The notes beneath the pieces were generated by a model. It was not told where the DNA came from, searched no databases, and saw only the letters and a list, made by a program, of their open reading frames with translations. A program made the position numbers and the translations under genes. A stretch of 47,700 nucleotides of DNA from Alphaproteobacteria bacterium (lineage in GTDB: Bacteria; Pseudomonadota; Alphaproteobacteria; JAJTHO01; CANGXP01), in contig CANGXP010000002.1 in assembly GCA_947457935.1 (NCBI GenBank), positions 1-47,700 on the forward strand. The letters run 5' to 3'. Shown here one piece after another: positions 10,947 through 27,712 of the stretch (the stretch's first letter is position 1; every line of letters begins with the position of its first letter).

Positions 10947-12335
10947 CTACACCCCCAACGCCCGCCAGCCAATATCCCGTCTGCAAAAACCATTATCCCA
11001 CTGAATAGCATCCACGGCTTTATAGGCATTCTGCTGCGCTTGCCGCAAGGTTGCCGCCTTGCTGCTCACAACCAACACCCGCCCGCCAATGGCGGTTAAT
11101 GCACCGTTTTCATCCCGTGCTGTACCTGCATGAAACACGACTGTATCCGATACCAACCAACTAAAATTTCTGAAGGCTGCCTGCGCCACGCCATCGGCTG
11201 CAGTCATTGGCGTTAAGCCAACTCCGTTTAGCCTCGGCTCGCTCGACGACCCTTCAGAAATTTTAGTTGGTTGGTATGATGGTGTCGATAACGCATCCAC
11301 ACCCCGAATCACCGTGCCTTTTTGGAACTGGGCGGGATAGCCCTTGCTTGCCATCACTACGCATAAAGCAGGCGCATCATCCCACTGAGGGGTTGGCAAC
11401 GCGGCAAGGCGTTGTTCTGCAACACTGAGCATAATTTCCACAATATCGGTGTTGAGGCGTAACATCAGCACCTCACATTCAGGGTCACCAAAACGGGCAT
11501 TATATTCCAGCAATTTCGCGCCGTCTTTGGTGACCATCAACCCTGCGTACAGCACCCCTTGATAGGTAATCCCTTCGGCGTTCAATGCATTCACCGTAGG
11601 GATAATAATGCTGTCCATAATCTGTTGCGTGAAGGCAGGATTTTCTAACGGCGCGGGAGAATATGCCCCCATGCCGCCTGTGTTAGGCCCCTTGTCGCCA
11701 TCAAACACGCGCTTGTGGTCTTGCGCCGTGCCAAACGGTATCGCGGTGATGCCATCCGTCAGCGCAAAAAAACTCACCTCTTCGCCCTCCATAAACTCTT
11801 CAATAACGATAGCCCCCTGCTCTTCTAGCAACGTGTGTACGGCTGCCTCTCCTTCTGCATAACTCTCCGCAATAATCACGCCCTTGCCCGCCGCCAAACC
11901 ATCCGCTTTTATCACCAAGGGAGGAGACAATGTTTGCAAATACTGGAGGGCAGGTTCTGCTGTTGTGAATCGCTGATAGGCTGCTGTGGGAATCCCATAT
12001 TTCGCGCACAGGTCTTTCATAAAGACCTTAGAGCCTTCGAGTTGCGCAGCCATCTGATTACAGCCAAACGCCTTTATTCCTGCTTGTGCGAGGGCATCCA
12101 CCACCCCTGCCACCAACGGTGTTTCGCCGCCCACCACCACAAAATCAATGGTATTTTTTTGGCAGAACGCCACAACGTCGGCAGGATTATTGGCGTTGCC
12201 CGTAACGGTTGTTGCAACATCCGCAATCCCTGCGTTGCCATTCATGCAATATAACGCCGTGCAGTGCGGGGATTGTTTGATTTTCCACGCCAGCGCGTGT
12301 TCGCGCCCGCCGTTGCCAAGGAGGAGGATGTTCAT
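10947..12335 (-). CDS. purD: phosphoribosylamine-glycine ligase with an in-frame palindromic insertion
   Basis: GARS, the ATP-dependent second step of purine synthesis. It has the N-terminal MNILLLGNGGREHALAWKI, the ATP-grasp domain (VIKADGLAAGKGVI, GEEVSFFALTDG, FNARFGDPE-like YNARFGDPECEVL) and the C domain (VVMASKGYP, VVFHAGT, GGRVLVV). It is 462 residues; most PurD proteins have about 420-430. The excess lies between GVDALSTPS and SDTVVFHAGT, where about 43 residues (YQPTKISEGSSS...FRNFSWLV) have no counterpart in the family. This insert is encoded by a perfect 27-bp inverted repeat and its spacer (11150-11277). The reading frame is preserved, so the enzyme is probably made with a surface loop added to the C domain. 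The gene is divergent from xseA, a common alphaproteobacterial arrangement. Confidence 0.95.
   Translation of the reverse strand: MNILLLGNGGREHALAWKIKQSPHCTALYCMNGNAGIADVATTVTGNANNPADVVAFCQKNTIDFVVVGGETPLVAGVVDALAQAGIKAFGCNQMAAQLEGSKVFMKDLCAKYGIPTAAYQRFTTAEPALQYLQTLSPPLVIKADGLAAGKGVIIAESYAEGEAAVHTLLEEQGAIVIEEFMEGEEVSFFALTDGITAIPFGTAQDHKRVFDGDKGPNTGGMGAYSPAPLENPAFTQQIMDSIIIPTVNALNAEGITYQGVLYAGLMVTKDGAKLLEYNARFGDPECEVLMLRLNTDIVEIMLSVAEQRLAALPTPQWDDAPALCVVMASKGYPAQFQKGTVIRGVDALSTPSYQPTKISEGSSSEPRLNGVGLTPMTAADGVAQAAFRNFSWLVSDTVVFHAGTARDENGALTAIGGRVLVVSSKAATLRQAQQNAYKAVDAIQWDNGFCRRDIGWRALGV
11150..11277. mobile_element. in-frame palindromic element in purD
   Basis: The arms 11150-11176 and 11251-11277 are perfect 27-bp inverted repeats around a 74-bp GC-richer spacer. 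The spacer contains a smaller stem TTGGC-GTTAA-GCCAA at about 11207-11221. The whole element is 128 bp and with one flanking base adds a multiple of three. It falls exactly where PurD is longer than its relatives. Rickettsial palindromic elements (RPEs) are known to insert in frame into protein genes in this way; I cannot say whether this is the same family. No transposase is present, so it would be non-autonomous. Confidence 0.85.
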
Positions 12336-18573: not shown

Positions 18574-19858
18574 ATCCTAGATTGAGACGCACTGCCACAC
18601 TCCCCGCATGGGCGTGTAATCCTTCCTCGCTTGCCAGTGTCACGGTGGGTTGCCCCAACACTTGCAAAGAATCAGCGGAACACTCAAGATAGGTGGTGCG
18701 CTTTAAGAAATCGTAAACGCTTAACCCTGAGGCAAACCGAGCCGTTTGGTTGGTGGGCAACACGTGATTCGCCCCGCCAATATAATCGCCAATCGCCTCA
18801 GGGGTATATTTGCCGATAAACACACTGCCTGCATGGCGGATTTTTTGAGCGAGTTCACGCGCGTTTTCCACACAAATCTCCAAGTGTTCGGCTGCAATGG
18901 TGTTGGCAATGGCGATGCTCTCCTCAATAGTCTCCACCACAATCACCACGCCATGCTGCTGCCAACTTTGCACGGCAATCTCGCGGCGCGGCAGGGTTTC
19001 AAGGATTTTCTCTACCGCTGCAACCACGTTCGCTGCAAATTCCGCATCATCCGTGATCAGAATAGATTGCGCCGAGGCATCGTGTTCTGCTTGAGAGAGC
19101 AAATCCCACGCAATCCATTGCGGATTATTGTGTTTATCCGCAATCACCAGAATTTCCGAAGGGCCTGCAATGCTATCAATGCCCACGCGCCCGAACACCT
19201 GTCGTTTTGCCTCTGCCACAAAGGCGTTGCCTGGTCCGACAATTTTATCCACAGGCTTGATAGTTTCCGTGCCAAACGCCAACGCTGCCACGGCTTGCGC
19301 TCCCCCGATGGGGTAAATTTCTGTCACACCCGCCAGTTGCGCTGCATACAGCACCGAGGGCTTTATCGCGCCATTCGGTGTGGGCACCACCATCACAATC
19401 CGCTCCACACCTGCAACCTTGGCAGGGAGCGCATTCATCAGCACGGAACTCGGATAACTCGCCGTGCCTCCCGGAACGTAAATCCCCACGCTATCAAGCG
19501 GTGACCACGCAAGCCCCAAGCGCACACAAATTTCATCCGTATAATCAAGCGGTTGCGGAGATTGCTTGGCATGAAAACTACGAATGCGCGTCGCCGCTAG
19601 CTGCAACGCATTTTGCACATCTTCAGGGCATTTTGCCGCCTGTTGCGCGATAAAATCTTGTGATAACGCCAGTGTTTGCCCAAGCGTGTGTTTATCAAAC
19701 CGCTGGGTATATTCTCGCAATGCCACATCACCGTTATTTTGAACAGTGATTAATATTTCGCGCACTGTTGCTGCAACGTCCACTTCTTCTCCGCGAGACT
19801 GAAGCACGTGCTTAAGTTGCGCGGCAAAATCAGGGGCAGTATTACGAAGGTATTTCAC
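18557..19858 (-). CDS. hisD: histidinol dehydrogenase
   Basis: A 433-residue zinc enzyme oxidising histidinol to histidine in two NAD-dependent steps. It has PGGTASYPSSVLMNALPAKVAG, GGAQAVAALAFGT, DKIVGPGNAFVAEAKRQVFG, IAGPSEILVIAD and the catalytic SQAEHDASAQSIL (about residue 257). The start is GTG 19858, overlapping hisG by 17 nt. The last residues (GFTRNA) and the TAG stop are encoded by the arm of the palindromic element at 18448-18573, so the natural C-terminus has been replaced. Since the family ends with a divergent helix, function is probably kept. Confidence 0.97.
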   Translation of the reverse strand: MKYLRNTAPDFAAQLKHVLQSRGEEVDVAATVREILITVQNNGDVALREYTQRFDKHTLGQTLALSQDFIAQQAAKCPEDVQNALQLAATRIRSFHAKQSPQPLDYTDEICVRLGLAWSPLDSVGIYVPGGTASYPSSVLMNALPAKVAGVERIVMVVPTPNGAIKPSVLYAAQLAGVTEIYPIGGAQAVAALAFGTETIKPVDKIVGPGNAFVAEAKRQVFGRVGIDSIAGPSEILVIADKHNNPQWIAWDLLSQAEHDASAQSILITDDAEFAANVVAAVEKILETLPRREIAVQSWQQHGVVIVVETIEESIAIANTIAAEHLEICVENARELAQKIRHAGSVFIGKYTPEAIGDYIGGANHVLPTNQTARFASGLSVYDFLKRTTYLECSADSLQVLGQPTVTLASEEGLHAHAGSVAVRLNLGFTRNA

Positions 19859-25398: not shown

Positions 25399-25532
25399 AA
25401 AACCTCGCAGGACGCGCCTCAGATATCCTTTGTATTTTTTCGGCTACCATGGTAGCTAAAATTTTTCAAACCCCATCAGAAATCAATTTAAACGCGAAAT
25501 AGGCGTATTTTGAACACAGGGGTAGTGGTTTT

Positions 25533-27587: not shown

Positions 27588-27712
27588 ATTTAATCTTTTA
27601 TCGGGATGAGTGGCTAGGCAGGATAATGCGAAGAAACGCAAGCGTACTCTTGGGTACGTGCGGATTCTGAGTATTAGCCTAACGACGCCAATCGCCCTAG
27701 AAAAGATTAAAT
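27588..27712 (+). repeat. palindromic element (core-hairpin family), 27.6 kb copy
   Basis: The outer arms 27588-27599 and 27701-27712 are a perfect 12-bp inverted repeat (ATTTAATCTTTT), with imperfect pairing continuing inward through a GGG block. The core at 27643-27663 reads GCGTA-N8-TACGTGCGG and is preceded by GAAACGCAAG. The msbA stop codon (27707-27709) lies in the right arm. Confidence 0.75.

Follow-up and report, generated by a model that had tools for sequence, protein, structure and literature searches.

A dispersed palindromic element carried in frame by purD and other conserved genes of an alphaproteobacterium

Coding palindromes in bacterial genomes and the present family

Rickettsia palindromic elements (RPEs; Ogata et al. 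2000, 2002) are palindromic repeats of 105-146 bp that bear terminal inverted repeats and form a long hairpin; they are dispersed between genes as well as in frame within many conserved protein genes (PMC2229807, PMC10969869) and are also present in the tmRNA and RNase P RNA genes (PMC2229807). The RPE insert is exposed on the protein (PMC3767692), and the target duplication of these elements is listed as unknown (PMC2229807). Wolbachia palindromic elements (WPEs; Ogata et al. 2005, cited in PMC3767692) have been described solely from Rickettsiales. Among bacterial MITEs, those with short ORFs include ERIC/RU-1, NEMIS/Correia, and Coxiella QMITE1 (PMC2759123, PMC2229807, PMC10969869), and perfect inverted repeats within conserved protein-coding genes are described for nematomorph mitochondria (PMC6649704). 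A review in 2024 called the occurrence of RPE-like insertion in other prokaryotes conceivable (PMC10969869), and our literature search, made largely outside the subscription journals, brought to light no previous account of such a family beyond the Rickettsiales.

The DNA analysed here, a stretch of 47,700 nucleotides (the window), belongs to an alphaproteobacterial genome of 1.83 Mb, a draft in 72 contigs. The palindrome in its purD gene belongs to a mobile element present in about 21 dispersed copies. Members of this family lie in at least seven conserved protein genes, where the reading frame is left unbroken, and in one catalytic RNA gene. Like the RPEs, it is a dispersed palindrome of about 100-150 bp (126 or 219 bp here) that ends in inverted repeats and forms a long hairpin, inserts in frame into conserved protein genes with an open frame of its own (seven genes, one frame), and enters a structural RNA gene (in rnpB, the P12 helix holds a subfamily copy). 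It differs from them in its two defined lengths and in the 3-bp TNA duplication shown below; no convincing sequence match was found in class genomes outside the order, plasmids, phages, or Rfam, RPE-1 to RPE-10 being compared by description, and the host belongs to an order of 4 genomes, which would be too small for GTDB Rickettsiales. By analogy the family works like the RPEs, matching them in every behavioural trait testable, and is filed as RPE-like, not as RPE. The WPEs, compared by description, are likewise protein-coding palindromic repeats of an alphaproteobacterium. The MITEs named above share with the family the short, non-autonomous form, terminal inverted repeats, target-site duplication, hairpin RNA, and an ORF that can be fused to genes, but the enterobacterial fusions primarily concern small, putative, or hypothetical ORFs, whereas here conserved enzymes have repeatedly received internal, in-frame insertions. 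The nematomorph palindromes resemble the family by description, as perfect inverted repeats within conserved protein-coding genes, and differ in belonging to animal mitochondria.

The purD copy and its host protein

The initial annotation placed a perfect 27-bp inverted repeat with a 74-bp spacer in purD, and the two arms were found exactly there (Table 1). The extent given to it, 11150-11277, is that of the palindrome, but the mobile unit itself is the 126-bp stretch in Table 1, with the 3-bp duplication at its flanks. This palindrome is the sole inverted repeat of such quality within the window; three weaker ones (76-89% complementary) lie at 19791-19824, 25429-25470, and 27588-27712. The small stem noticed within the spacer corresponds to the inner hairpin, whose TTGGC/GCCAA stem is invariant across all 15 aligned copies. 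As coding-strand RNA, the sequence has a folding energy of -72.5 kcal/mol, compared with -36.1 +/- 3.9 for shuffled sequences (z = -9.3). The element scores E 3.3e-27 with the covariance model of the family, of which it is itself a member. As had been stated, the frame is kept, and the minus-strand ORF reads YQPTKISEG...FRNFSWLV across the element without interruption.

Table 1. Positions of the purD copy and associated features in the window
Feature	Coordinates	Strand	Details
purD host gene (phosphoribosylamine-glycine ligase)	10947..12335	-	462 aa including the insert; TIGR00877, 489.5 bits
Mobile element	11151..11276	-	126 bp (TACC...GGTA); 42 sense codons, purD residues 354-395
Inverted-repeat arm	11150..11176		27 nt, perfect, including the flanking A/T pair
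Opposite inverted-repeat arm	11251..11277		27 nt, perfect
3-bp flank CGA	11148..11150		coding strand TCG; half of the diverged target-site duplication
3-bp flank TGA	11277..11279		coding strand TCA; second half of the diverged target-site duplication
Conserved inner hairpin	11207..11221		TTGGC-GTTAA-GCCAA in the core, 5-bp stem

Alignment with PurD homologues defined the ends of the element and confirmed that the protein is longer than its family by about 40 residues at this point. The 36 aligned homologues, all from named alphaproteobacteria, contained 416-427 aa each versus 462 aa here, and at the site occupied by the 42 residues of the insert, 35 of them had no residue and the remaining one had a single residue. 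Against the solved PurD structures, the query jumped from residue 346 to 395 while the structure advanced just from 357 to 362. Once the element and one of the 3-bp duplicates are removed, the purD stretch reads GVDALSTPSDTVVFH, which has the same length as GLDEAAKVDGVEIFH of a relative. The same insert in distant PurDs lacking the inverted repeat was looked for and not found; the PurDs recovered from public genomes were only about 50% identical, and all were free of the insert. The AlphaFold model of PurD had a mean pLDDT of 83, with values below 50 for residues 353-395 and of 89 and 94 for the flanking blocks. It shows the insert as a low-confidence, predicted disordered loop on an intact fold, in line with the extra loop that had been proposed for the enzyme.

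A family dispersed through the genome, its genes, and rnpB

Searching the genome with the purD element by blastn gave 18 distinct places, and a covariance model built on 15 copies gave 21 copies at E <= 1e-6; besides purD, six copies lie in frame in conserved proteins and one lies in rnpB. Intact copies are 126 bp or 219 bp long, the longer form containing an additional 93-bp module, nested in the core, that has a hairpin of its own. The long form, with its module of about 93 bp, was observed at L012, L017, L014, L015, and L003, and at L149 and L151 a related module occupies a different position of the core, L149 being still in frame. The terminal inverted repeats are imperfect, span 28 bp, and begin with TACCAACCC, and the hairpins of the family fold with z values of -5.7 to -9.8. 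The subfamily L013, L016, and L018 retains the core with different arms. Type-2 elements have the same TACCAA ends and 3-bp duplications together with a different core (CTGGACACCAGCTTTCGCTGGTAATTCGC) and a length of 158-160 bp, generally not a multiple of three, so that they do not follow the arithmetic of 126 or 219 plus 3; they were observed at L155, L165, L169, and L192 (contigs 4, 9, 24, and 49), so far only between genes. Some intergenic copies of the family have taken the stop codon of a gene as their target, L002 after serA being an example. The intergenic copy L005:1471-1595 (contig 9) exactly fills the gap that separates an upstream stop codon from the ATG of an ftsY-like gene, its last bases abutting the start codon.

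In the 28-bp terminal stem, 16 pairs carried changes on both sides. The covariation score of the arms, 0.227 versus 0.105, was reached by none of 500 shuffles, and slid controls gave 0.05-0.08, about a third. Such covariation means either that the element relies on its hairpin or that the arms have been corrected from one another via template switching. The right arm of the purD copy departs from that of the family and mirrors its own left arm, and as far as the sequence goes, the perfect arms of this copy look like the product of such a correction.

The seven protein genes bearing the element, as named by NCBIfam, are purD, thiD, ubiA, ubiE, pyrC, mutL, and sfsA. Orientation and reading frame are identical in all seven, for which p is about 0.001 if three frames were usable and 2e-5 if six were. 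In most copies one or two reverse frames are open too, so the shared frame of the genic copies is not forced by stop codons alone. All seven genic copies are open and a multiple of three in length, compared with 4 of 11 intergenic copies (Fisher p 0.010). The insert was passed over by solved homologues or by the family profile in six of the seven proteins, UbiA being the exception. Against solved homologues, the query advanced from 110 to 152 in ThiD (structure 117 to 122), from 117 to 168 in UbiE (80 to 90), from 202 to 286 in MutL (220 to 230), and from 46 to 94 in PyrC (38 to 45), and the SfsA profile skipped the insert at 77-149, its second aligned stretch starting with residue 151 at profile position 79. 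UbiA is longer than its profile, and its insert was judged by length alone because the profile alignment begins within the insert. In the peptide encoded by the element, 18 of 42 positions are invariant across eight copies. The insertion in rnpB is a subfamily copy of about 124 bp (L018:1475-1598; contig 1, 102057-102183) located in the P12 hairpin, and the RNA is otherwise normal, matching Rfam RF00010 over its full length with 277.7 bits.

The flanks of 22 complete elements were compared, with shuffled partners as the control. An exact 3-bp direct duplication was present in 9 of the 22, versus a shuffled mean of 3.66 (p 0.0004), while duplications of 1, 2, and 4 or more bp were not in excess in the same set. 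The exact duplicates read TTA, TAA, or TCA, that is, TNA. In the genic copies the duplications have all diverged (none of the seven is exact), and for these copies the duplication is deduced from the family as a whole. An intact unit together with its duplicated 3 bp therefore lengthens the target by 129 bp (126 + 3) or 222 bp (219 + 3); both are multiples of three, and the frame is preserved. A duplication of TA only, as in IS630-like elements, was rejected, since a gene would then gain 124 bp and lose its frame, and duplications of length 2 were not in excess.

Terminal inverted repeats and a target-site duplication, the marks of a MITE (a non-autonomous DNA transposon), are both present here. 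The regions read, in a 72-contig draft from which a multi-copy IS could be absent, contained no autonomous element with TACCAA ends, the transposase searches covering the DDE_Tnp_1 and Y1 families, and the element is accordingly called MITE-like. Within IS5, the IS1031 group inserts at TNA, and a TNA-specific DDE transposase of the IS5/IS1031 type acting in trans is the candidate mobiliser, at roughly even odds. The only DDE_Tnp_1 match in the genome is an IS5-like element (L226, contig 32, about 1400-2300) with ends GAACCAGTCACG, flanks TAA/TAA, and a transposase frameshifted into two overlapping frames; it was not accepted as the source since its ends differ, although its flanks do fit the target rule. 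A mobiliser of the Y1/RAYT type was rejected because the PF01797 gene is absent from the genome, while it was found in 5 controls; the Y1 tyrosine transposase of REP/RAYT systems is thus missing here.

Origin of the family and its meaning

The order of the host comprises 4 genomes among 97,973 species, and its own family comprises one. Judged by this genome count, the order would be far too small to be GTDB Rickettsiales. The 4 genomes of the order include no close relative with an empty site in the same gene. Another member of the order (G001) has a single short element (L156:1460-1530, 71 bp) that shares the ends and has a TTA/TTA duplication but lacks most of the core, so the ends are not confined to the genome of the window. 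The family model at E <= 1e-4 gave no match in 384 other genomes of the class, under strict filters by which weak matches can be lost, and the 381 class genomes outside the order held no sequence match. Peptide-profile matches in other class genomes (G021, G209, G137, G149, and others) were set aside as chance, being mostly antisense thiolase or unrelated frames. Viral contigs, phage records, and plasmid records held nothing of the element sequence beyond a 35-bp Sinorhizobium plasmid match (E 8e-3), judged to be probably chance, and the purD region had no Rfam match.

A native PurD loop, specific to the lineage and immobile, with the palindrome as an incidental feature, would suit the kept frame and the plausible location of the loop; it is already refuted by the dispersed copies, the same sequence standing at about 21 places that include six unrelated proteins and an RNA gene, and the insert is in none of the 36 PurDs. 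The chance that the copies are true RPEs or WPEs, arrived by descent or transfer, is slight. Size, hairpin, and insertion in protein and RNA genes are all alike, but the searches of class genomes, phages, plasmids, and Rfam described above speak against kinship, and ATGAC is just five bases long.

What the insert does for its hosts can be read in other ways too. That the peptide or hairpin benefits the cell, by regulating mRNA stability or as a protein-protein patch, and is for this reason present in seven proteins, is an improbable reading. It draws on the invariant positions of the peptide and on the host genes being those of biosynthetic or repair enzymes; yet these positions fall in the DNA core and are conserved equally in intergenic copies, the insert is predicted to be disordered, no single pathway is common to the host genes, and of the 11 intergenic copies only 4 have the frame open. 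More doubtful still is a post-transcriptional loss of the insert, through processing of the hairpin RNA or ribosomal bypassing, that would leave the enzymes without it. An mRNA hairpin as stable as that of purD could be cut or skipped, but stops and frameshifts would then be free to accumulate, whereas every genic copy is open and 3n.

The purD insert is very probably one copy of a palindromic element that is MITE-like, non-autonomous, and adapted to survival inside genes. The moving unit of such an element would be 126 or 219 bp long and bounded by imperfect terminal inverted repeats, and it would insert at TNA sites, mostly TTA, TAA, and TCA, with duplication of 3 bp. With a sum divisible by three and one open frame, an insertion in the right phase would only add 43 or 74 residues. 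Insertions located in protein loops or at the tip of an RNA helix would survive purifying selection, and other genic ones would be lost. The insert would be translated as a tolerated loop, and selection on the hairpin, template-switch correction, or both may maintain the arms. The initial annotation had read the palindrome as an in-frame insertion of a selfish element, such as those known from Rickettsia; the dispersal, the absence from homologues, and the model, which are the outcomes of the three checks it suggested, all support this reading. Selfishness itself, in the sense of no benefit to the host, is presumed.

Mobile palindromes lying in frame in conserved genes have so far been regarded as peculiar to Rickettsia and Wolbachia, with the mode of insertion unknown. 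There is about an even chance that palindromes tolerated by genes arose more than once, the present family being of the RPE-like class with an independent origin, in which 3n length, 3-bp duplication, and open frame were selected together. If so, it would supply a simple physical rule for in-frame insertion, a matter left open for the RPEs. Elements with a 3-bp duplication and a 3n length would be expected in genes and those of other arithmetic would not, for which the type-2 elements, with the same ends, provide a ready contrast within the same genome. A second lineage that behaves alike, with a readable 3-bp duplication and 3n lengths, suggests a general rule by which parasitic DNA may persist inside essential genes and contribute new segments to proteins.
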